A stretch of 45,739 nt of DNA from Bacteroidales bacterium (GTDB lineage: Bacteria; Bacteroidota; Bacteroidia; Bacteroidales; P3): positions 1 through 45,739 of the forward strand of contig JAFTBM010000052.1 in assembly GCA_017455205.1 (NCBI GenBank), given 5' to 3'. Of this stretch, positions 3,812 through 29,913 are shown piece after piece (the stretch's first letter is position 1; each line of letters starts with the position of its first letter). The translations under genes were made by a program, and so were the position numbers. The notes below the pieces were generated by a model that did not search any database, was not told the DNA's origin, and was given only the letters and a program-made list of their open reading frames with translations.

Positions 3812-4876
3812 ATGAAACAGCGCACCACTATCATCCGCCTCGCCCTCGCAGCACTGGCTGTGCTGACCGCAGCCTCGTGCGAGAAGGTGATTGAAATCGA
3901 CGAGGCCGACTACCCGCCGCAGCTGGTGCTCAACGGGCTTCCCTCGGCAGGGCAACGTGCCTTCGTCAATTTCAGCTATACCCATTTCTTCCTCGACCCC
4001 AACAACGCACAGCCCGTCGGTGGTGCAGAGCTGCGGCTGACGGTGGGTGGCACCACCTACCGCCCCGATAGCGTCGACGGCTGCAACTACTTCTTCCCCT
4101 ACACCTGCCAGCCAGGCGACACGCTGCGGATGGACATCGAGGCCGCTGGCACGTCGGTCAGTGCGCAGACCTACATCCCCCCGATGCCAGCCATCGATGG
4201 CTTCACTGCCCACACCTTCGCTGGCGGCTCGTTTCGCTTCTACCGCACACGCTTCACGCTCCACGACCACGGGGATGTGCCAGAATACTACTACCTGACC
4301 GTCGAAGTGCGCGACAGCGGCCTGCGCTACAATCCCTACCAGCACAAGGTGGACACCGTGGATACCATCAGCCACAACTACTTCGGCTTCCGTGGGTCGG
4401 GCGAGGAGATTACCTCGAGCGACGTAACGCCGTTCATCCCCCTCGGGGGCTACCTCTACAGCCAGCTGCTGTTCACCGACAAGCGCATCGACGGGCAGGA
4501 CTACCCCGTGGAGCTCTACATCCTCAACCTCATCGACACCAACGAGATCAATACCGAGACCGACACCTTCCGCCATTGGTATACCATTAGGCTGGAGTCG
4601 ATCACGCCAGCGCGGTGGAACTACCAGCTGTCGGTGGTGCGTTCGCAAAGCATGGGGAGCTATTTTGCCGAGCAGGCGAGGGCGTGGAGCAACGTCAGCG
4701 GTGGCGTGGGCATCTTTGCTGGCATGGCCAAGCAGACCTTCACCTTCACGCCCGACACGCTGATGCCGTTTGTTCCCCCTCTGCTGAAGTCTCCTGCGAG
4801 GGTCGAAGAGCATAGAGCCGTGCAACCGCAGCTATCTGGCGAGGAGGCATTCTACATCAGGCCAAGCCGCTGGTAG
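3812..4876 (+). CDS. DUF4249 lipoprotein, partner of the TonB receptor
   Basis: A 354-residue protein with a lipoprotein signal: hydrophobic stretch, then lipobox TAASC with Cys about residue 23. The mature start CEKVIEIDEADYPPQLVLNG is characteristic of the DUF4249 family, which is almost always encoded directly after a TonB receptor of this type. By analogy with SusD it may be a surface lipoprotein lidding the receptor, but the family has no proven function. Later parts show alternating beta strands and GGVGIFAGMAKQTFTFTP near residue 300. The last 40 residues (rich in Pro, Arg, Glu) look less typical. The 3' end overlaps the convergent radical SAM gene by 25 bp, so this tail could be an extension gained by loss of an earlier stop; that is inference. 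Confidence 0.88.
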   Translation: MKQRTTIIRLALAALAVLTAASCEKVIEIDEADYPPQLVLNGLPSAGQRAFVNFSYTHFFLDPNNAQPVGGAELRLTVGGTTYRPDSVDGCNYFFPYTCQPGDTLRMDIEAAGTSVSAQTYIPPMPAIDGFTAHTFAGGSFRFYRTRFTLHDHGDVPEYYYLTVEVRDSGLRYNPYQHKVDTVDTISHNYFGFRGSGEEITSSDVTPFIPLGGYLYSQLLFTDKRIDGQDYPVELYILNLIDTNEINTETDTFRHWYTIRLESITPARWNYQLSVVRSQSMGSYFAEQARAWSNVSGGVGIFAGMAKQTFTFTPDTLMPFVPPLLKSPARVEEHRAVQPQLSGEEAFYIRPSRW

Positions 4877-5925
4877 TGGCAGGTGAGGAGCTGCTGGTGG
4901 TCGTCGTAGAGGTGAAGTCCACTACCTTCGCAGTAGCGATAGACTTTGCACGTAGCGCACTGCCCCTTGCGGGTCCACTCCCGATGGCGCATTGCTTGGA
5001 AGCGGTGCTGCCAGACGTCCCAAAGGTCGTCGGTGTAGATATTTCCTTGGCTCATCGGGCTGCGCACCGAGGTGCAGCCGCCGATGCTCCCATCGCAGCG
5101 GATAGAGGCCACCTCGATGCCCGAACGGCAGAAGAAGAGATGGTCGCGGACGCGCCCTTCGTATTCACCGAGGAAGCCTTCGCAGGCGTAGCTCAAGCGG
5201 ATAGGGTCGCCCGCGGCACGGCTGCTGACAATGAAGTCCATCAGCCCACGAAGCTGCTCGGGTGCGAGCTGCAACTGGCGGTCGGACGCTGCCCGGCCCA
5301 TAGGGGCGATGGAGAAGAGCCGCCAGTGGCGCACACCGCGCCCGATGAGGTGCTGCTTGAGGTCGGCGAGGTGGTCGAAATTGAGGGGGCTGACGCAGGT
5401 TACCACATCCCACAGCACCTCGTGCTGCTGTGCCAATAGGCCGAGAGCCCTATCGGCATGAGCAAACGCCGAAGGGCAGCGGCGCAAACTGTCGTGCTGC
5501 GGGGCAAGGCCATCGAGGCTGACCGTCAGGCTGTGCATCCCCGACTCGGTGAGGCTCGCCAGGCGCTGGCTATCGAGCAGGAACGCATTGGTAACCACCC
5601 CCCACGGGTAGCCGCGGCGGTAGAGTTCCCACCCCACCTCCTCAAGGTCTGGCCGAAGCAATGCCTCGCCTCCAGTGAGGATAATAAAAGTGCGGTGAGG
5701 GTCAAGATGAGGCGTCAAGCTGTCGATGGCACGGAGAAAGTCGGCAGCGGGCATGTCTGCCACATCGGGTTGCTGCCTGCAGTCGCTACCACAGTGGCGG
5801 CAGTGCATATTGCAACGCAGCGTACATTCCCAAAAAAGGCTGCGCAACGGGTGCAACTGGGCAGCAGCATGGCGCTGGCTTCGAGCCAGCTCAAGGCCAA
5901 TGCGCTGACGCAAAGAAAGGCTCAT
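4852..5925 (-). CDS. Radical SAM/SPASM enzyme of the rSAM/lipoprotein system
   Basis: A 357-residue radical SAM protein. Taking the ATG at 5925 gives MSLSLRQRIGLELA and a 4-nt ATGA overlap with the stop of the lipoprotein gene, so the two are translationally coupled; an upstream in-frame ATG at 5976 lies inside that gene and is less likely. The cluster motif is C38-x3-C42-x2-C45 within WECTLRCNMHCRHCGSDC, with extra Cys34 and Cys49. The SAM-binding GGE motif follows in ILTGGEALLRPDL. A C-terminal SPASM-like region has CRSG, CDGSIGGC, CATCKVYRYC and a final Cys, enough to bind auxiliary iron-sulfur clusters. The family pairs with a small lipoprotein in Bacteroidota (TIGR04133/TIGR04134 from memory). 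Substrate and chemistry are unknown; modification of the partner lipoprotein is the obvious guess. Confidence 0.9.
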   Translation of the reverse strand: MSLSLRQRIGLELARSQRHAAAQLHPLRSLFWECTLRCNMHCRHCGSDCRQQPDVADMPAADFLRAIDSLTPHLDPHRTFIILTGGEALLRPDLEEVGWELYRRGYPWGVVTNAFLLDSQRLASLTESGMHSLTVSLDGLAPQHDSLRRCPSAFAHADRALGLLAQQHEVLWDVVTCVSPLNFDHLADLKQHLIGRGVRHWRLFSIAPMGRAASDRQLQLAPEQLRGLMDFIVSSRAAGDPIRLSYACEGFLGEYEGRVRDHLFFCRSGIEVASIRCDGSIGGCTSVRSPMSQGNIYTDDLWDVWQHRFQAMRHREWTRKGQCATCKVYRYCEGSGLHLYDDHQQLLTCHYQRLGLM

Positions 5926-6467
5926 CTCGGCAGGAGCTTGACATCCACCTCGCGAGTGTACTTGCCGAGGTTCCATCCATCAGCCTCGCGTTTGTCCACC
6001 TCGTTATCCTTCACTTCAAGTTCCACAATCTGGTTGGCGAAAGAGCCGTTGGCGGGGCCATCGATGTCGCGCAGCAGCAGGCGGAGCTCACGCTGCGGCA
6101 GCCCACTCTGATGCACCTCAAAGCGACCATCTTCACCTGTGCGGACAGAGGTCTCGGCAAGGTAGCGGCGGATGTTCTCCTGGTCGCCATAGATTGTGTC
6201 GGGCGTGGCTTCGAGGCCACGCTCAAGCAGGTTGACCTCAATGCCTTCGATGGGACGACCTGCGGGGTCGTGGACATAGCCGCGGACGGTAAAGTCCATC
6301 GTCGGCACGCCGTACATCAGCCTTATCTCCTCCCGCTCCTGCGGCATAGGCGCTCCCTGCGGCTGTTTCGAGGCCGTCTTGCGGCTACTTTGGCAGGCCG
6401 AAAAGCCCAACGCTCCCAGCAGGGTGGCCAGCAACCAATGCTTCAATTTGAGGTAGTGCAGCTTCAT
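5922..6467 (-). CDS. Lipoprotein partner of the radical SAM enzyme
   Basis: A 181-residue predicted lipoprotein. The ATG at 6467 gives MKLHYLKLKHWLLATLLGAL followed by GFSAC, a lipobox with Cys25. An ATG nine codons upstream (6494) would only lengthen the basic n-region and is disfavoured. The mature part begins with a polar linker, then IRLMYGVPTMDFTVRGYVHD (about residues 48-67), which resembles the conserved YGxPxAxFxxxG segment of lipoproteins paired with rSAM/SPASM enzymes. A carboxypeptidase-regulatory-like beta-sandwich follows (GRPIEGIEVNLLE, then TGEDGRFEVHQSG) and the protein ends KYTREVDVKLLPR. It probably sits in the outer membrane. It is first in a two-gene unit, its stop overlapping the enzyme's start. 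Whether it is modified by the enzyme is not known. Confidence 0.85.
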   Translation of the reverse strand: MKLHYLKLKHWLLATLLGALGFSACQSSRKTASKQPQGAPMPQEREEIRLMYGVPTMDFTVRGYVHDPAGRPIEGIEVNLLERGLEATPDTIYGDQENIRRYLAETSVRTGEDGRFEVHQSGLPQRELRLLLRDIDGPANGSFANQIVELEVKDNEVDKREADGWNLGKYTREVDVKLLPR

Positions 6468-7264: not shown

Positions 7265-9754
7265 ATGAAAAAGACACCTACGCTGAAAGATTTGGGCGAG
7301 ATGCTCGCCCACGGAATGAATATCAGGGCCGACATAGTGCCCATCATCGATGAGGATAGCGAGAATTTGCTGCTGAATGTGGACAATTCGGCGGCGGAGT
7401 TGCCAGTGCTGCCGGTGATGGATCAGGTGCTGCTACCTGGGGTGGTGCTGCCGATTGTGGTGCGTCGCGAGAAGAGCCTACGCCTGCTGCACGATGCGCA
7501 GGAGGGGAAGAGCAACATCCTGGTGCACACGCAGCTCAATGACAACGAGGAGCCAGCCGAGGCCGACCTTTGTGCGATGGGAGTGGTGGCACGGGTGATG
7601 AAGGTGTTTGAGGTGAAGAAGAACATCTCGGTGGCTATTTTGCAGGGGATGACCCGCAGCTGTCCGCTGGTACTCACCCAGCGGGAGCCCTACATGAAGG
7701 GAATGGTACAGTTGTGTCCCGAGAGCGATGAAGGCACGCGGAGCGTGGCCTTCAAACGCAAGGTGAAGAAGTTGCGCAAGCAGTATTCGGACTTGATGGC
7801 GATGCGCATCGGCGAGGAGGAGGGGAGCGATATTGTGGCGAACATCGGGAGCGACAAGATATTCCTCAACTTTGTGGCATCGCATCTGGAGACCGATGTG
7901 GAGGTCAAATGCAAACTTTTGGAAGCCAACACCTACACCGAGAGGCTCGACATGCTGCTTGAGCAGATGGCCTCGCAGCGGGGTTTGGAAGAGCTCAAGC
8001 GCGAGATAGAGAGTCGCACACAAGACGTCATCGGGAAGCAGCAGCGCGAATACTTTCTGCGCAACCAGCTGAACGTCATCCAGGAGGAGCTTGGGCATCA
8101 GGACGACGATGATGCGTCGTGGAAGAATAATCCCGAGCTGAGCGAGTTGGCGGCCAAGGCCGAGAAAGCTGGGCTGACGGAGGAGGTGAGAGCGCTGTTT
8201 GACAAAGAGTTGAAGAAATTGAGCCATATACCCAACTTTGCCTCGGAATACACAGTGCAGTACAACTACTTGGAGACGCTGCTGGAGGTGCCGTGGCAGA
8301 AGCAGGCGGAGGGGAAACTCGACATCGGCGAGGCACGCCGAGTGCTGGATCGCGACCACTACGGAATCAAGAAGGTGAAGGAGCGGATAGTGGAGTACTT
8401 GGCGGTGATGAAGCGCGTGGGCGAGAAAGGTGGGAAGGAGCACAAAGCGCAGGTGCTCTGCTTGGTAGGGCCTCCAGGGACGGGCAAGACCTCCATTTGC
8501 CGGAGCATAGCCACGGCCATGGGCAGGCCCTATCGGCGCATTGCCCTCGGCGGCCTGCACGACGAGGCCGAGATACGCGGCCACCGCCGCACCTACGTCG
8601 GTGCGATGCCAGGACGCATCGTGCAGGAGTTGGTCAAGGCGGGGGTGAACAACCCAGTGTTTGTGCTGGACGAGATTGACAAGGTGCAGCACTCATCGTA
8701 TAGCGGCGACCCGACGTCGGCGCTGCTTGAGGTGCTCGACCCAGAGCAGAACAGCCACTTCCACGACAACTTCCTCGGGATGGATGTAGACCTGTCGCAC
8801 GTGTTTTTCATAGCCACAGCCAACAGCCTCGGCGAGGTGCCGGCGGCGCTGGTGGATCGGATGGAGGTCATCGCCTTCAGCGGCTACGTGCAGGAGGAGA
8901 AGCTCGAGATAGCCAAGCGGCACCTGCTGCCGCGCATAGCGGCAGAGAACTGCCTCGACCGCCGGACGATGCGCTGGAGCGACGAGGTGATAGCGGAGGT
9001 GATCAATAGCTACACACGCGAGGGTGGCGTCCGCCAGCTGGAGAAGCAGCTGAGCAAGGTGGTGCGCCACCGCGTGGTGCAGGCCGAGAGCGGCGAGAAG
9101 CAGGCTGCGGCGGTGAGCCAGGCGGAGGTGAAGGAGGTGCTGGGGCTACCTATCCACACAGGCGAGCGCCTGCAGCGCGAACCACGCGAGGGGGTGGTGG
9201 CTGGGCTGGCGTGGACGCCCGTGGGCGGTGAACTGCTCTTCATCGAAAGCTCTGTGAGCCACGGCAAGGGATCGCTCTCGCTGACGGGCAACCTCGGCGA
9301 GGTGATGAAAGAGTCGGCCACGCTGGCCTTCACCTATATCAAGGCCAATGCCGAGCGCTTCGGCATCAGCGAGAAAGAGATGGAGAAAAGTGCGGTGCAC
9401 ATCCACGTACCCGAGGGTGCTACGCCGAAGGATGGCCCGTCGGCGGGCATCACGATGTTTGTGGCGATGGTGTCGGCATTGAGCCACCGCAAGGTAAACC
9501 CACGGGTGGCTATGACGGGCGAGATTACGCTTCGCGGCGAGGTGACGCCGATAGGCGGCGTGAAGGAGAAGCTGCTGGCTGCACGGCGTGCTGGCATCAC
9601 CGACGTGCTGCTTTGCACCGAAAATCGGCGCGACGTGGAGGAAATAGAGCCCGAATACCTGCAGGGCCTGACGTTCCACTACATAGAGGAAATCAGCGAG
9701 GCACTGCCGCTGGCACTGGTCGAAGAAAAACCCAAGAAAGCCCCCCGAAAATGA
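7265..9754 (+). CDS. lon: ATP-dependent protease La
   Basis: An 829-residue cytosolic AAA+ serine protease that degrades misfolded and regulatory proteins. The ATG at 7265 was chosen because AAGGGGAG (7251-7258) lies 6 nt before it and MKKTPTLKDLGEML fits the family; an upstream ATG at 7190 adds 25 residues with no match. The substrate-binding LON domain starts at about residue 40 (LPVLPVMDQVLLPGVVLPIVV). Then come a coiled linker, Walker A GPPGTGKTS (about 402) and Walker B FVLDEIDK (about 465). The C-terminal protease domain has the nucleophile Ser in PKDGPSAG (about 725) and the catalytic Lys in GGVKEKLLAARRAG (about 767). Full length and intact. Its stop overlaps the next start as ATGA, so an envelope protein is coupled to it. 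Confidence 0.97.
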   Translation: MKKTPTLKDLGEMLAHGMNIRADIVPIIDEDSENLLLNVDNSAAELPVLPVMDQVLLPGVVLPIVVRREKSLRLLHDAQEGKSNILVHTQLNDNEEPAEADLCAMGVVARVMKVFEVKKNISVAILQGMTRSCPLVLTQREPYMKGMVQLCPESDEGTRSVAFKRKVKKLRKQYSDLMAMRIGEEEGSDIVANIGSDKIFLNFVASHLETDVEVKCKLLEANTYTERLDMLLEQMASQRGLEELKREIESRTQDVIGKQQREYFLRNQLNVIQEELGHQDDDDASWKNNPELSELAAKAEKAGLTEEVRALFDKELKKLSHIPNFASEYTVQYNYLETLLEVPWQKQAEGKLDIGEARRVLDRDHYGIKKVKERIVEYLAVMKRVGEKGGKEHKAQVLCLVGPPGTGKTSICRSIATAMGRPYRRIALGGLHDEAEIRGHRRTYVGAMPGRIVQELVKAGVNNPVFVLDEIDKVQHSSYSGDPTSALLEVLDPEQNSHFHDNFLGMDVDLSHVFFIATANSLGEVPAALVDRMEVIAFSGYVQEEKLEIAKRHLLPRIAAENCLDRRTMRWSDEVIAEVINSYTREGGVRQLEKQLSKVVRHRVVQAESGEKQAAAVSQAEVKEVLGLPIHTGERLQREPREGVVAGLAWTPVGGELLFIESSVSHGKGSLSLTGNLGEVMKESATLAFTYIKANAERFGISEKEMEKSAVHIHVPEGATPKDGPSAGITMFVAMVSALSHRKVNPRVAMTGEITLRGEVTPIGGVKEKLLAARRAGITDVLLCTENRRDVEEIEPEYLQGLTFHYIEEISEALPLALVEEKPKKAPRK

Positions 9755-11238
9755 GCAGACGAGGCAAAGGCAACCAGCGGCGAGGGCTACGGCGAGCGGT
9801 GGCGATATTCGCTATGGCTGCCGTGCTGTGCGGCCATGCGGCAGGGCAGGAGACTGCCATCCAGGCCACACGGATGCCGTGCTCGGTGCTGCCAGGGAGG
9901 ATGGGTAACGTCTCGATAGTGGACGGTCAGCTCTATTGCTACGCTTCGGGGCTTCTGCTGGTGGCCCAGCGCCAGGGCAGCGAGGTGGTGGGCTTCGAAG
10001 CCGACACCCTCTATTCACGCCTCGGGGAGGGGGTGGATTACGTGGTGAAGCATCCCACATCGGGCGATGTCTACTTCACCAGCGTGGACAAAAAAGGCCG
10101 ACGCTCGCTCTACTGCTGCCGCAACGACAATGGGCGACTGAAGAAAGCCAAGCGGGTGCGTACAGGGCGGCTGGAGGCAACGCACCCCGTATTCACCACC
10201 GATGGCGGGGCGATGGTTTTTTCCGCCCAGTCGGCCTATGAAGGAAGGGGGGGCTACGACCTGTGGATAGCCGACCGCCAGGAGGAGAAGTGGAGCGAGC
10301 CCCGCAACCTCGGAAGCCGCATCAACAGCACGCACGACGAGGTGTCGCCCACGGTGAGTGGCGACTACCTATTTTTCGCCTCGGCGGGGCATGAAAGCGA
10401 GGCTGGAAGGCTTGACCTCTACGCCCTGCAACTGACCCGCAGCGGCGAGGGCGACAGCACACGGCAGACGGTGGCCGCAGAGAGCCTCGTACAGCACCTG
10501 CCAATGCCACTGAACAGCGAGGAGGGCGACGATTTCGACTTGGCTGTGGATTCTGACCAAGGGTGTGGCTACTGGGTGTCGCGCCGATTGCAGTCGGAAT
10601 GCGACTCGCAGCTCTACAGTTTCCGCGGAGGAATTGACGGCGTGAGGCTGTGGGGAATAGTGTCTGACGTCGAGGAACGAAAGATGGCTGATGTGGAGGT
10701 GGTGGTGATGCAAAACGGCACGACAGTATGCCGCACGACGACCAACGGCGAGGGACGCTACGAATGCTACCTGCCCAGCGGACAATACTACGAGGTGCAG
10801 TTCCGAAAAGAGGGATATTTCGTGGAGTTCGAGGTGGTGAACACCCTCAAGAAGCCTGGTTCGCCACTGATTACCGAAGAGCGGCGCGATGCAGCGATGA
10901 ACGGTTTGGCACACCAGCAGCCTATATACTACGACGACCTGTTTGGGCCAGGGGCCGACTTGGAGTTGAGCGACTTTGGGCGCGAGCGTCTGGCATCGCT
11001 GGTGAGCTACTTGACCGACAATCCCCGCTCGCGGGTGCGGCTGACGCTGGTGAGCGACCTGACGGAGGATGCCGGATTCAACCTGATGCTCACAAGCGGG
11101 AGGTTGCAGACGCTGGAGGGATACCTCTACGAGCGAATACCCACCTCGGTGGCTTTGGATTTTGCCAACGGCTGCGCGGGAAGCACAGGGTGCAACACGG
11201 CGACCGAGAGAGTGCGGCTGACGGTGGTTATCGAATGA
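9751..11238 (+). CDS. Exported beta-propeller / CRD / OmpA-like protein coupled to lon
   Basis: A 495-residue exported protein. The ATG at 9751 shares ATGA with the lon stop and gives a basic n-region and hydrophobic core (RRAVAIFAMAAVLCGHAAG) followed by Gln. PD40/WD40-like propeller blades cover about residues 40-290 (FTTDGGAMVFSAQSAYEGRG, YDLWIADR, DEVSPTVSGDYLFFAS). A carboxypeptidase-regulatory-like domain follows (about 305-370; DVEVVVMQNGTTVCRTTTNG). The end (about 400-495) looks like a degenerate OmpA C-terminal domain, with a helix FNLMLTSGRLQTLEGYL in place of the usual NxxLSxxRA. The T9SS protein PorE has TPR, propeller, CRD and OmpA domains in this order, but this protein lacks the TPR part and a lipobox. 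Function unknown; a periplasmic or peptidoglycan-linked scaffold is plausible. Confidence 0.8.
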   Translation: MSRRGKGNQRRGLRRAVAIFAMAAVLCGHAAGQETAIQATRMPCSVLPGRMGNVSIVDGQLYCYASGLLLVAQRQGSEVVGFEADTLYSRLGEGVDYVVKHPTSGDVYFTSVDKKGRRSLYCCRNDNGRLKKAKRVRTGRLEATHPVFTTDGGAMVFSAQSAYEGRGGYDLWIADRQEEKWSEPRNLGSRINSTHDEVSPTVSGDYLFFASAGHESEAGRLDLYALQLTRSGEGDSTRQTVAAESLVQHLPMPLNSEEGDDFDLAVDSDQGCGYWVSRRLQSECDSQLYSFRGGIDGVRLWGIVSDVEERKMADVEVVVMQNGTTVCRTTTNGEGRYECYLPSGQYYEVQFRKEGYFVEFEVVNTLKKPGSPLITEERRDAAMNGLAHQQPIYYDDLFGPGADLELSDFGRERLASLVSYLTDNPRSRVRLTLVSDLTEDAGFNLMLTSGRLQTLEGYLYERIPTSVALDFANGCAGSTGCNTATERVRLTVVIE

Positions 11239-11259: not shown

Positions 11260-11791
11260 TTTGCACTTTGGCGAAGTTGGTATTTCGGCAAGGAGACGAA
11301 GATTGCATCTTCGCTAAATTGCATGGCGAGGGTTGGGCGAAGTTGAAAACTTCGCATCCTTGGATTGCGGCGAGGCCGGTATCTCGGCAAGGAGGCGAAG
11401 ATTGCATCTTCGCCAAATGGCTGGGCTGGGATTGGGCGAAGTTGAAAACTTCGCCTCCTTGCACTGTAGCGAGGTTGGTACCTCGGCAAGGAAACGAAGA
11501 TTGCATCTTCGCTAAATGACAAGGCGAGGGGTGGGCGAAGTTGAAAACTTCGCCTCCTTGCACTGTAGCGAGGTTGGTACCTCGGCAAGGAGGCGAAGAT
11601 TATATCTTCGCTAAATGACAAGGCGAGGGGTGGGCGAAGTTGAAAACTTCGCCTCCTTGCACTGTAGCGAGGTTGGTACCTCGGCAAGGAGGCGAAGATT
11701 GCATCTTCGCCAAATGGCTGGGCTGGGATTGGGCGAAGTTGAAAACTTCGCATCCTTGGATTGCGGCGAGGTTGAAAACTTCGCCTCCTTG
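11260..11791. repeat. 99-bp tandem array with three hairpins per unit
   Basis: Units start with hairpin GCGAAGTTGAAAACTTCGC at 11337, 11436, 11535, 11634 and 11733, exactly 99 bp apart. There is a truncated unit from about 11260 and a truncated, rearranged end to about 11791. Each unit also holds the hairpin CGAGGTTGGTACCTCG and the hairpin GCGAAGATTGCATCTTCGC. In unit three, arms CTTCGCCTCCTTG (11548-11560) and CAAGGAGGCGAAG (11586-11598) are perfect complements, giving a larger alternative stem around the middle hairpin. Two spacer variants alternate among the units (TTGCACTGTAG versus TTGGATTGCGG). Open frames run through on both strands only because 99 is divisible by three. The array lies between the propeller gene and tRNA-Pro. 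Confidence 0.93.
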
Positions 11792-12085: not shown

Positions 12086-14560
12086 CTAACAATGGTAGTA
12101 GACGCGCTTGACTCGGGGCGAGACGGCGGTAAGAAGCTCGTAGGGGATGGTGCCAGCGGCGGCGGCATTGGCTTGGAGGAGGTCGCCCTCGCCAAATATT
12201 ATGGCTCTATCGCCCTCGGCACAGGCCACATCCGTGGCATCAACAAAGCACATATCCATGCAGACGCTGCCGATGATGGGGCACTGATGCCCCGCTATCA
12301 GCACACGCCCGCGCCCGTAGCCGAGGCCGCGGTGGAGGCCATCGGCATAGCCGATGGGGAGGATGGCAATCTGCGAGGGGCGCTGGGCTTGCCAGCGGCA
12401 ATTGTAGCCCACGGTGTCGCCAGTGGCGATGGCTTTGAGCTGCGAGATGCGAGTGGTGAGGCGGCTGACTTGCTGCAGGTGGGACTGCACCTCGGGGTCA
12501 GGGCTGATGCCATAGAGGCCAATGCCGAGGCGCACCATGTCCAGCTGCGCTTCGGGGAAACGGGTGATGCCCGAGGAATTGAGGATATGCTTGATGCCTG
12601 GCATTCCATCGCTCCACTGGTGCAGACGCGAGATTTGGGCTTGGGTGAAGCTGTCCATAGAGGGATCCTCGCTGCAGGCGAGGTGTGAAAATACGCTTTT
12701 CACTTCGAGCAGCGAGGCGAGCTCGGATAGGCGGCGACGGAGCTGCTGCACCTCGTGGCCTGCGAAACCGAGGCGGTGCATGCCGGTGTCGAACTCTATG
12801 TGGATAGGATATGGAGCGGGATTGGAGGGTGTGAGTGCTTGCCGCTGGGCGATATGGTCGGCGAAAAGATTGAGTATGCGGAAGCTGTAGATGTCAGGCT
12901 CAAGGCGGTAGGCTACGATGTCGTCGAAGGAGGCTTCTTCGGGGTTCATCACCATGATGGGGAGGGTGATACCGCCGCGTCGGAGTTCGACACCCTCGTC
13001 GGCATAGGCCACGGTGAGGTAGTCTACGTGGTTGAATTGTAGAGCCGAGGCCACTTCGACGCGCCCTGCGCCATAACTTGAGGCTTTGACCATAGCCATG
13101 AGGCGGGTAGTGGGGCGAAGGCGCGAGCGGAAATAGTTGAGGTTGGCGGTTAGGGCATCGAGGTTGACCTCCATAATGGTCTCGTGGTTTTTTCGCTGGA
13201 GGATTTTGGCTATGCGTTCGAAGGAGAAAAGTCGTGCACCTTTGAGGAGGATAGTTTGATGGGCGAGGAGAGCGGGGTCGAAGTGGTCGAGGAACTCTTG
13301 GGTAGAGGCGAAGAAGCTGGAATGGAGCTGGGAGAAAGTACCCTGGCAGCGCGAGAGGGCTTCACCGATGCCTATAAAGCGAGTAACGCCACGGCGGGAG
13401 ACCATCTGTGCCACACGGGCGTATAGGTCGGCCTCGGGAATGCCGGTCTGGAGCATATCGCTGAGGATGACAGTCCGATCGGGGAATTGGTTGACTTGGG
13501 AGAGATAGTCGAGTGCGATGGCGAGGGAGTTGAGGTCGAGGGAGTAGCTATCGTTGATAAGGAGGCTGTCGAAACGGCATTCGGAGAGTTCGAGTCGCAT
13601 TTCGATGGGGGTGAGTCTGGCGCAGCGGCGGGCTACCTCGGAGGGGAAATAGCCGAGGTGGAGCATGAGGGCGATGCAGTGCATAGCGTTTTCCTGCGAG
13701 GCGCGGTCGAGGAAGGGGATGGTGAAGTGGCAGTGGGTGCCGCTGCTGCGCAGGAGGAGGTGGAAGGTGGAGGTGAGGTCGGTGGAGGTGAGGCTTTCGA
13801 TGAGGAGGTCGGATTGAAGGGAACGCCCCCAAGTGAAGGTGGAGAAAGCTGGAGCGGGATGGAGATGGCTGACGGCGGAATGGATGTCGGCATGGTCGGC
13901 ACAATAGATAAGGGTCTGGCAATGGGTGAAGAGTTTGAGCTTCTCGGCTATTTTTTGGTTGCGGGAGGAAAAGTTTTCATCGTGAGCATGGCCGATGGTG
14001 GTGAAGATGCCGATGGTGGGTTGGATGACTTGCTGCAGATGACTCATCTCGCCTGGGAGGGAAATGCCGGCCTCGAAGAGGGCGATTTGGTCGGACTGGG
14101 AGAGTTGCCACACCGAGAGGGGGACACCGATTTGGGAGTTGTAGCTCTTGGGGCTGGCCACCACTCGGCGGTCGGCGGAGAGCATTTGCACGAGCCAGTC
14201 TTTGACTATGGTCTTGCCATTGCTGCCCGTGATACCCACCACTGGGATGGAAAAGTGCCGGCGATGGCTTGCAGCGATGGCTTGCAAAGCGGCTACTACA
14301 TCGGATACGACCCAAAGGTTGACATCGGTGTAGGGCAATGAGCATCCCGAGGGGACGATGAAAGAGCGGACGCCCTGGCGGTAGAGGTCGGCGATGTAGC
14401 GGGTGCCGCTGTTGCGCTGGGTAGGGATTGCGAAGAAGAGGGTGTCGGTCGGGGAAGAGAGATGGCGGCTGTCGGTGAGCAGATGGAGGATGTCGGCCTC
14501 GGGTTCGACCACTTGCGAGGCTATTGGGGCGATGATACTGGTTATGGTTGATGCTTTCAT
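12086..14560 (-). CDS. Fused MurF ligase / alanine racemase
   Basis: An 824-residue two-domain cytosolic enzyme. The N-terminal half is UDP-N-acetylmuramoyl-tripeptide:D-Ala-D-Ala ligase, with the ATP loop GITGSNGKTIVKDW (about residues 110-123) and HAHDENF after the central domain. The C-terminal half, from about residue 455 (MEVNLDALTANLNYF), is a fold-type III alanine racemase. Its pyridoxal-phosphate lysine is in MVKASSYGAG (about 490), and SVCMDMCFVDAT marks the second active-site segment. It would supply D-Ala and attach D-Ala-D-Ala to the peptidoglycan precursor in one polypeptide, a fusion known in Bacteroidota. The start at 14560 shares ATGA with the stop of the DUF2851 gene. In the P-loop, GKTI replaces the usual GKTT. 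Both halves look intact. Confidence 0.94.
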   Translation of the reverse strand: MKASTITSIIAPIASQVVEPEADILHLLTDSRHLSSPTDTLFFAIPTQRNSGTRYIADLYRQGVRSFIVPSGCSLPYTDVNLWVVSDVVAALQAIAASHRRHFSIPVVGITGSNGKTIVKDWLVQMLSADRRVVASPKSYNSQIGVPLSVWQLSQSDQIALFEAGISLPGEMSHLQQVIQPTIGIFTTIGHAHDENFSSRNQKIAEKLKLFTHCQTLIYCADHADIHSAVSHLHPAPAFSTFTWGRSLQSDLLIESLTSTDLTSTFHLLLRSSGTHCHFTIPFLDRASQENAMHCIALMLHLGYFPSEVARRCARLTPIEMRLELSECRFDSLLINDSYSLDLNSLAIALDYLSQVNQFPDRTVILSDMLQTGIPEADLYARVAQMVSRRGVTRFIGIGEALSRCQGTFSQLHSSFFASTQEFLDHFDPALLAHQTILLKGARLFSFERIAKILQRKNHETIMEVNLDALTANLNYFRSRLRPTTRLMAMVKASSYGAGRVEVASALQFNHVDYLTVAYADEGVELRRGGITLPIMVMNPEEASFDDIVAYRLEPDIYSFRILNLFADHIAQRQALTPSNPAPYPIHIEFDTGMHRLGFAGHEVQQLRRRLSELASLLEVKSVFSHLACSEDPSMDSFTQAQISRLHQWSDGMPGIKHILNSSGITRFPEAQLDMVRLGIGLYGISPDPEVQSHLQQVSRLTTRISQLKAIATGDTVGYNCRWQAQRPSQIAILPIGYADGLHRGLGYGRGRVLIAGHQCPIIGSVCMDMCFVDATDVACAEGDRAIIFGEGDLLQANAAAAGTIPYELLTAVSPRVKRVYYHC

Positions 14561-15837
14561 AGGCGTTTTAAGATATGGAAACCGATGCGGCACTCAAGGC
14601 AACGGCGTGGAAGGCAGTAGGCGTCGTAGAGCTGCAGGAGGGCTTGGCTTTCGGCAGCATGGGTGGGGAGAAGACCTAAAGCTTTCCAACGGCGAACGAT
14701 GGCATTATCCTCGGGAGGTAGCTGCGAGAGGAGCGCGAGGGCTTGGTCCTTATAGCTCGGCTGATTGTGCTGCTGTCCGTAGACGAGCAGTAGGGGTATC
14801 CAGGCGTTGATTATGAGCAGCTCAATCAGCATATTGCCCACCCGCTTGGTGGATGCGGAGGTGGTGGGCTGGTCGAATTGGTAGTGGTTGCACCAATAGC
14901 TGGAGGCTTGTTGGGAGAAAAGGTGCTTAATGTCTTTGACATCGGTGAGCGGAAGGAGGGAGAAGAAGAGGTGGGGAGCGGCTGACATGAGGTGAGCGAA
15001 CTGACTGATACGGATGGTGGGGAAGCTGGAGGGACGGAGGCAGTAGAACTTCCAGAGGTAGCCATCAATCGGATTGAGGTTGGCCCCCGCACGGAGTGCT
15101 GCATAGTCGGCCTGAAGTTGGCGAGGGTAATCGTCCTCGAAATAGCCTTCGAGAAGTCCAGCCTGCCCCATTAGGATAGCCTCGATGCGCTCGGGGTTGT
15201 CGGTCCAGCGGGCAAGGAAGCGAGGGTCGGTGGCTTTGGCCAGCAACTCAAATACCAGGGCGTTGACCTTCCCCCCGAAATAGCGAGCCATGAGCCAATA
15301 GCAGACGCGTTCCCAGTCGCCTCGGCTCTCTTCGAGCATCCGCATAATGAGGCCTGATTTATGCTCCATGCGCTCCATCACCAGCCTGTCGAGCATCGAA
15401 TTAACCACCAAGCGAGACACCTGGGGCAACTTGTGGCCGCAAGGGATTTCGCTTGAGGGGGTAGGTGCCGTCAGTGCTTGATAGTTGGCCACGAGCGAGG
15501 GATGAAGCCAGTGCTTGAGTTCCAGGGTGTGGGGTGATTTGCCATTTTGGAGAAAGATTTCGGCATCGTGTTCGTAGACGACGTGGAGGATGATGTTGTT
15601 GTAGGCAGGGTCGGAGCTGTGGTGGTGGGCATGCCAATGCGAGGTACTGATATGGATTTCCACATTGCCCACCCACTCCATACCACCAATACGCAGACGG
15701 GCGTTGAAGAAGTCGGGACCTGCATCGCGGTTAAGTTCTCCTGCACGCAACACTTCAACAGGCTGGCCATCGGTGGTGGTCAGCCCGCTGGAGAGCAACT
15801 GATGCTGCCAGATATAGTGCAGGAAAGCCTCTGTCAT
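14557..15837 (-). CDS. DUF2851 family protein
   Basis: A 426-residue protein recognised as DUF2851 by its N-terminal third: MTEAFLHYIWQHQLLSS, GELNRDAGPDFFNARLRIGG (about residues 32-51), VEIHISTSHWHAHHHSSDPA and YNNIILHVVYEHD. The latter His- and Asp-rich part could bind metal, but no function is proven. No signal peptide or membrane span is seen, so it is probably cytosolic. The middle and C-terminal parts are helical with many Leu and Tyr. It starts 13 bp after dnaJ and overlaps the murF-alr start by 4 nt, so it is in one unit with chaperones and a wall enzyme; the meaning of that grouping is unclear. Confidence 0.85.
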   Translation of the reverse strand: MTEAFLHYIWQHQLLSSGLTTTDGQPVEVLRAGELNRDAGPDFFNARLRIGGMEWVGNVEIHISTSHWHAHHHSSDPAYNNIILHVVYEHDAEIFLQNGKSPHTLELKHWLHPSLVANYQALTAPTPSSEIPCGHKLPQVSRLVVNSMLDRLVMERMEHKSGLIMRMLEESRGDWERVCYWLMARYFGGKVNALVFELLAKATDPRFLARWTDNPERIEAILMGQAGLLEGYFEDDYPRQLQADYAALRAGANLNPIDGYLWKFYCLRPSSFPTIRISQFAHLMSAAPHLFFSLLPLTDVKDIKHLFSQQASSYWCNHYQFDQPTTSASTKRVGNMLIELLIINAWIPLLLVYGQQHNQPSYKDQALALLSQLPPEDNAIVRRWKALGLLPTHAAESQALLQLYDAYCLPRRCLECRIGFHILKRL

Positions 15838-29608: not shown

Positions 29609-29913
29609 TTCGTGTGCGAACTAATTGTATCCCCCAGCCACCCACGCTGCACCCTCGCCGCTTTCCCGCCGTATTTCCTCCGTATGGATACGGACTTGAT
29701 ACGGAGCGGATACGGAGGGGATACGGAGCGGATACGGAGGGGATGCCTACCTGAAGCCAACAAGGTGCTAACAATGAGGCAGTTGAATTTCAGCAAAAAT
29801 GCTATTTCTTTGGAAATAAAATCCTTTGAGGCAATAATTGCCGGCCGAAAGGGGCAGAAAAAAATCGAAAGAAAAAGAGAAAAAAAATGAATTAGTTCGC
29901 ACACGAACTAATT
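29609..29913 (+). repeat. Composite repeat, copy B, with 18-bp terminal inverted repeats
   Basis: The 66-bp core at 29686-29751 repeats copy A (476-541) nearly base for base as 11-mers of GGATACGGAGC. It is preceded by the small hairpin CCGTAT-GG-ATACGG (29680-29693). CGAAAGGGGCAGAA lies about 95 nt after it. The whole is bounded by an exact 18-nt inverted pair, TTCGTGTGCGAACTAATT (29609-29626) and its complement (29890-29907). The right end is itself a perfect 10-bp-stem dyad, 29890-29899 with 29904-29913. Nothing coding is seen in the 581 bp between the TonB receptor and the next gene (29482-30062). Confidence 0.72.

Follow-up and report, generated by a model that had tools for sequence, protein, structure and literature searches.

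What does a radical S-adenosylmethionine (SAM) enzyme do with the lipoprotein whose gene overlaps its own? The question is raised by a 45,739-nt stretch of DNA from Bacteroidales, an order that lives in the gut (contig JAFTBM010000052.1 of assembly GCA_017455205.1; the whole stretch is called the window below). Its minus strand carries a lipoprotein gene at 5922..6467 (181 aa, with a start that matches relatives in our lipoprotein alignment A2), followed at 4852..5925 by the gene of a radical SAM/SPASM enzyme (357 aa, recognized by profile scores, its cysteine set and a structural model). As the initial annotation had described, the two genes share an ATGA (5922..5925, minus strand) in which the lipoprotein stop TGA overlaps the enzyme start ATG, and its assignment of the pair to TIGR04133/TIGR04134 was confirmed, with both proteins over the curated NCBIfam cut-offs (enzyme to TIGR04133, 526 bits against 425; lipoprotein to TIGR04134, 94.6 bits against 39.8). 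The pair itself is already known, being named by NCBIfam, with no reaction assigned in the libraries used. What is new here is a core motif in the lipoprotein, a set of short lipopeptide partners, a group in which the lipid-bearing cysteine directly precedes the motif tyrosine, and a link to the enzyme clan that acts on X-Tyr-Gly (XYG) sites. No paper naming the pair was found by title or start of abstract and neither accession appeared in any searched paper; Scott 2022 (a splicease survey), Morinaka 2018 and Lakis 2022 lay outside this search and may list the family. We propose that the two genes form a protein-modification system in which the Tyr-Gly (YG) of the motif is very probably the modified site, whatever the chemistry, and we put the probability that the enzyme is splicease-like and acts on prolipoproteins at roughly 0.55.

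The YG motif in lipoproteins beside TIGR04133 enzymes

The window lipoprotein begins with a type II signal peptide, a possible leader (residues 1-24, ...GFSA/C25 with the slash marking its end; 6396..6467, minus strand; predicted helix 2-23), and the lipid-bearing Cys25 (6393-6395, minus strand), the lipobox being assigned by eye. The proposed modification site, M51-Y-G-V-P-T-M-D-F59 (6291..6317, minus strand), was located from alignment A2 and the partner counts given below. In the structural model, MYGVP closes an unstructured stretch (predicted coil 24-55) and is followed by the first beta strand. Among the 26 aligned lipoproteins of A2 that carry a beta-sandwich, whose rows were picked for YG anywhere and not for proline (one unrelated lipoprotein of 27 was removed), the invariant columns were G21, C25, Y52, G53, P55, G63 and G114.

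We counted this motif across 136 enzyme loci, made up of the window, 80 named loci taken as the best among 186 that a genome scan confirmed, and the 55 other enzyme places found at order level (56 in total), where the named and unnamed sets may share species. Lipobox open reading frames (ORFs) were called by a rule of our own, and "near" meant on the same strand within 700 bp. YGxP was present in 130 of 166 near lipobox ORFs versus 12 of 274 lipobox ORFs that lay farther away or on the opposite strand, some of these 12 being extra copies of the partner; with the limits set to 1600 bp and to mature residues 1-130, background rates of 5/252 for YGxP and 36/252 for YG were obtained. The Fisher test on this enrichment is read as descriptive only, the motif having first been spotted by eye in part of the same loci. 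When mature residues 1-60 were shuffled in 143 partners chosen for YG, YGxP arose in 1.5%, against 89% observed. Proline stood at +3 from the tyrosine in 130 of the 143, a count that is favoured by our use of the copy with Pro at +3 in partners with several YG.

By this rule, 112 of the 136 enzymes had a near YGxP lipobox ORF, and the other 24 loci were inspected by eye. Nine of them had a YGxP partner whose signal peptide failed the rule (L080, L090, L094, L100, L107, L108, L110, L177 and L206), five had YG without P at +3 (L081, L084, L184, L201 and L205), L088 had YAGP, and L104 had YGGP copies 3.7-4.2 kb off. No partner was seen by eye in L077, L099, L172, L190, L193, L196, L203 and L221, of which L077, L099, L190 and L221 lie at contig edges. 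That relatives of the enzyme regularly lack the lipoprotein had been named by the initial annotation as a refuting outcome. Among the 56 order-level places, the rule gave a near lipobox ORF with YGxP in 45 and with YG in 47. In the nine remaining places, a YG partner was found by eye in three (L177, L205 and L206), and L221 is cut by its contig edge and holds the tail of a TIGR04134 protein. In L172, L190, L193, L196 and L203 the partner was not found, with L190 at a contig edge and L193 having a short, low-scoring enzyme.

Co-occurrence across genomes, which the same annotation had proposed as a check, held as well. At E ≤ 1e-70, 45 of the 198 order-level genomes had TIGR04133 (41 over the cut-off), and all 24 genomes with TIGR04134 over the cut-off fell inside these 45 (Fisher p 8e-19), an association that is not by chance. 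Among the 21 enzyme genomes without TIGR04134 over the cut-off, 17 have a YG partner adjoining the enzyme (16 by rule, and L205 by eye), leaving four without one (L172, L190, L193 and L196).

Short partners and the residue before the tyrosine

The initial annotation had held that the partner lacks the short core of typical ribosomally synthesized and post-translationally modified peptides (RiPPs). This proved wrong: the X-Y-G-x-P motif lies in the flexible linker after the lipid cysteine, and 28 of the 136 loci encode minimal partners of 46-110 residues that retain the signal peptide, the lipid cysteine and one to three YG motifs. Over these 28 loci are spread 34 YGxP partners whose mature part is shorter than 95 residues, and 41 short YG partners in all carry P at +3 in 34 cases. 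At 46 residues in total, the L036 partner is the shortest, its signal peptide and lipid cysteine being followed by TKPDMYGCPPSEYNDSILNQ. By eye, short and long partners have only the signal peptide, the lipid cysteine and the YG motif in common.

The rest of the window lipoprotein, residues 56-181 (5925..6302, minus strand), is a carboxypeptidase-regulatory-like beta-sandwich by a structural model and a CarboxypepD_reg Pfam match below the cut-off (21.9 bits against 32.3). Because the short partners are too small to hold it, this domain is dispensable and looks like a carrier, and the beta-sandwich as the functional core of the system was ruled out on the same ground. Among the best 50 of 1047 Foldseek matches of the lipoprotein, template modelling (TM) scores by query length reached at most 0.42 with generic folds (dioxygenases, pilins and cohesins), and the SusCdex NTE domain (80 residues) scored 0.70 by its own length; a search of the sequence against solved structures gave no match at E ≤ 1.

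Residue X, before the tyrosine, varied among the 143 partners (M 78, E 21, C 20, K 12, L 4, A 4, V 3 and D 1), as expected if X is merely homologated. In all 20 cases with X = C, X is the very cysteine that bears the lipid; by the lipobox rule these cases fall in 20 of the 24 loci L170-L193, and L177 adds a 21st case by eye. The enzymes of these loci score about 350-500 bits on the enzyme profile built for the analysis, and those sampled form two tree groups (support by the Shimodaira-Hasegawa-like approximate likelihood ratio test, SH-aLRT, 87 and 99) at an open fork and may not be a single clade.

The optimal signal for export to the cell surface, C-X-K-(D/E)2 according to PMC5080379, is not in the window lipoprotein (CQSSRKTASK). 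Some short partners do carry it (CNKDDEDD in L033 and L042), and since just 33 of the 143 partners have at least two acidic residues at +2 to +7, surface display is not general.

Enzyme signature, distribution and gene neighbourhood

The radical SAM motif CX3CX2C was correctly recognized by the initial annotation; it spans residues 38-45 inside WECTLRCNMHCRHCGSDC (5791..5814, minus strand), and C38, C42 and C45 are kept in all 136 enzymes. The estimate of about eight other cysteines came near, as nine (C49, C177, C248, C266, C284, C323, C326, C332 and C349) are each present in at least 134 of the 136, with C34 in 118. Both Pfam Radical_SAM and Pfam SPASM (33.3 bits against 21.5) matched over their cut-offs. 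The SPASM cysteine consensus includes CX2CX5CX3C. In the window enzyme, the SPASM region C266-C349 (4879..5130, minus strand) has CX2CX5C without the final X3C residue, and C49, C177 and C248 are extra. An AlphaFold2 model of the enzyme (mean predicted local distance difference test score, pLDDT, 92.8) found its closest solved folds in SkfB, BlsE, SuiB, anSME and PqqE, which are SPASM and related radical SAM enzymes, and a sequence search against solved structures matched general radical SAM enzymes.

Ahead of the SPASM cysteines lies GFLGEYEGRVR (residues 250-260; 5146..5178, minus strand), a signature common to TIGR04103 and GDL-type enzymes. In its strict form, G[YFL][YLF]GxYE...R, it occurred in the one TIGR04103 row, all three GDL-type rows and 21 of 34 TIGR04133 rows, whereas none of the 35 radical SAM rows outside these groups had it in full (two of these 35 are identical). 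A relaxed pattern, applied to TIGR04133 alone, was found in 110 of 136 enzymes, and 15 of the 26 that failed it have a variant differing at one or two residues. Around five related loci that lack the full signature, the same-strand ORFs of 25-200 residues within 1.2 kb included no convincing YG peptide; one of these stretches was short. TIGR04103 and TIGR03913 were the third and fourth best NCBIfam matches of the window enzyme, extending into its SPASM part. In a tree built by a quick method and including long branches, TIGR04133 formed a single group on a long stem (SH-aLRT 100).

Within the window's genus, 57 of 59 genomes have the enzyme (35 of the 35 good ones), and within its family it occurs in 38 of 101 genomes and 4 of 12 genera. 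In 11 of the 59 genomes of the genus there is a further TIGR04133-like enzyme, with about 43-45% identity to that of the window. In a phylum-wide draw, TIGR04133 was over the cut-off in 2 of 296 genomes, one being the window's own; at E ≤ 1e-3 it matched 229 of 296, and such weak matches are uninformative because 13 of 14 control genomes match too. TIGR04103 was over its cut-off in none of 198 phylum genomes. Outside Bacteroidota, the pair is found on the Treponema saccharophilum plasmid pTS1 (L233), adjoining an annotated Mpi-family DNA invertase, which suggests horizontal transfer. The partner motif there is CYGMP.

Sequence similarity places the lipoprotein family beside the enzyme in 51 of the 72 enzyme clusters, and in 102 loci out of the 136; antisense ORFs of the same DNA are counted in. 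The partner overlaps the enzyme gene by 4 nt in 14 of the 113 loci with an upstream YG partner, the most frequent spacing. On the other side of the window enzyme, the TonB/DUF4249 pair is convergent, as the initial annotation stated, with the ends of the enzyme and DUF4249 ORFs overlapping at 4852-4876. A functional link to these genes, earlier called uncertain, was unsupported and was rejected: the two families neighbour the enzyme in just 3 and 4 of the 72 clusters, which we read as synteny among close relatives. Elsewhere in the window, an intergenic 99-bp tandem array (11261-11774; 5.2 copies, 87% matches) directly follows the ORF at 9613-11238, two separate arrays at 476-529 and 29686-29744 share a near-identical 11-bp unit GGATACGGAG(G/C), and an 835-aa ORF at 12086-14593 (minus strand) resembles, by eye, a MurF-alanine racemase fusion.

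Candidate reaction and comparison with known systems

TIGR04103 is the family to which we take PlpX to belong, equating it with IPR026482. PlpX is listed under that accession and is described as acting together with PlpY (PMC11002830), and PlpXY is reported to cut tyramine out at XYG, with MYG and LYG as natural sites and a 10-residue PlpA2 tag bearing GYG sufficing in one fusion (PMC10533398). Because both the core motif and the enzyme signature match this XYG-acting clan, we favour a splicease-like reaction for the window pair. The cytosolic enzyme would act on the new prolipoprotein at X-Tyr-Gly-x-Pro, presumably ahead of export and lipidation, removing most of the motif tyrosine (tyramine excision, loss of C8H9NO) and homologating X. 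Once exported and anchored, the lipoprotein would display, in the flexible stretch that joins its lipid to the beta-sandwich, an electrophilic alpha-ketoamide, and in short partners the product would be a small lipopeptide. The proposal of the initial annotation that a modified lipoprotein is the simplest reading is thereby kept, as a reading of sequence comparisons.

Several observations weigh against a splicease-like reaction. The window enzyme scores 105.4 bits against TIGR04103, with a cut-off of 725, and is not assigned to that family; it does about equally well on the models for TIGR04053, NirJ-type enzymes and heme b synthase, and the tree joins TIGR04133 to the TIGR04103/GDL group with support of just 82. 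TIGR04103 lacks C49, C177 and C248, which are fixed in TIGR04133, while TIGR04133 lacks one SPASM cysteine. PlpX pairs with PlpY, yet no PlpY-like neighbour was found beside TIGR04133 enzymes (a phmmer search of the 2198 ORFs lying within 2.5 kb of the 136 enzymes gave nothing at E ≤ 10, a weak test with a 71-aa query that we take for PlpY from its position in Nostoc). A partial signature occurs in 7 of the 35 other rows (for example, GYYGENEKYIR in L011), the most divergent TIGR04133 members lack the signature though most of their partners keep CYGxP, and HCGS, a further shared feature, also occurs in rows without a YG peptide. The loci in which the motif was first noticed were later included in its count, and the precursor evidence for TIGR04103 is one sequence. 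The LYGLPI tags shown in the FtsZ table of PMC10533398 are given as not modified, so YGxP alone was insufficient for PlpXY there; one longer GYGLPI tag was modified, and a GYGVVFPG tag has no P at +3. Given the low score, the weak tree support, the missing PlpY and the different cysteines, the reaction may differ from that of TIGR04103.

Another chemistry at the motif tyrosine, such as a C-C or C-O link to the aromatic residue at +7 or to a nearby residue, or a change at a beta-carbon, with a loss of about 2 Da, is the alternative that survives best, though we consider it unlikely. Among the closest folds, SkfB, SuiB, anSME and PqqE are SPASM peptide maturases, and these make crosslinks or other oxidations; the cysteine set unlike that of TIGR04103 would also fit. 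The aromatic at +7, present in 101 of the 143 partners, is enriched even among the short ones (27 of 41, with aromatics at no more than 22% at +2 to +6 and +8), but 42 of the 143 lack it. A ring from Tyr to +2 is disfavoured by the variability of that residue, which can be Gly or Pro, and the motif and enzyme signature together fit the splicease clan.

It is improbable that YG is only a docking or leader element of a lipoprotein that is no substrate, and that the enzyme acts instead on some third protein or molecule not linked to the pair. A fixed helper would be expected once per locus, and by rule 89 of 136 loci do have exactly one YG lipobox partner, but 28 loci carry between two and five. 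Repeated motifs and short partners resemble substrates, and no third gene family recurs near the enzyme (the runner-up reaches 6 of 72 clusters). Least probable is an envelope binding protein joined to a small-molecule radical SAM enzyme through a shared pathway only, for although the beta-sandwich is similar to widespread binding and regulatory domains and heme-type models score about the same as TIGR04103, short partners cannot fit the domain and all partners share just the signal peptide, lipid cysteine and YG motif.

If the splicease-like reading is true, beta-amino acids and alpha-ketoamides would occur in envelope lipoproteins of Bacteroidales. A fuller version, which we offer tentatively, is that these are "lipo-spliceotides" made by a splicease that needs no partner protein and excises tyramine from prolipoproteins near the membrane anchor, and that in the group with divergent enzymes the lipid-bearing cysteine itself may be homologated (...A/C-Y-G-T-P), the anchor becoming a beta-amino acid next to an alpha-ketoamide. 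Spliceotide products are called protease inhibitors (PMC11117315 and PMC10373908, both citing Scott 2022); the lipoproteins might inhibit envelope proteases, with X selecting the target, a function that we regard as doubtful. A named site, a candidate reaction and a natural partner of 46 residues make this unexplained pair directly testable.

Among known systems, the window pair is a member of TIGR04133/TIGR04134, with the adjacency seen on annotated Parabacteroides and Treponema plasmids. GDL systems (TIGR03913 with DUF1843 peptides) resemble it in enzyme clan and signature and in an XY(G/A/M) near the peptide N-terminus, and GDL-annotated enzymes are 47-48% identical to the TIGR04103 enzyme of Nostoc sp. 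C057. The DUF1843 peptides beside three GDL-type enzymes (L235, L242 and L271) read LYGG, PYGV, MYMA, LYAA, MYAA, PYGA, LYGV and PYGV, so that all eight contain Y and five contain YG, and these systems may share XYG-type chemistry; they differ in that the peptides have 56-64 residues and no signal peptide or lipobox was seen in them. With PlpXY and TIGR04103, the window pair shares the XYG substrate, a SPASM radical SAM enzyme, the GxxGxYE...R signature and HCGS after the cluster motif. In the one TIGR04103 enzyme examined, that of Nostoc sp. C057 (853 bits), the adjacent Nif11 precursor ends in ALYGLPPELF, an XYGxPxxxF that fits many of the lipoproteins. Besides the differences in score, SPASM cysteines and PlpY given above, the substrate differs, which here is an exported lipoprotein and there a peptide with a Nif11 or NHLP leader. 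If the reading is true, a splicease able to act with no partner protein would make a simpler labelling tool than PlpXY.

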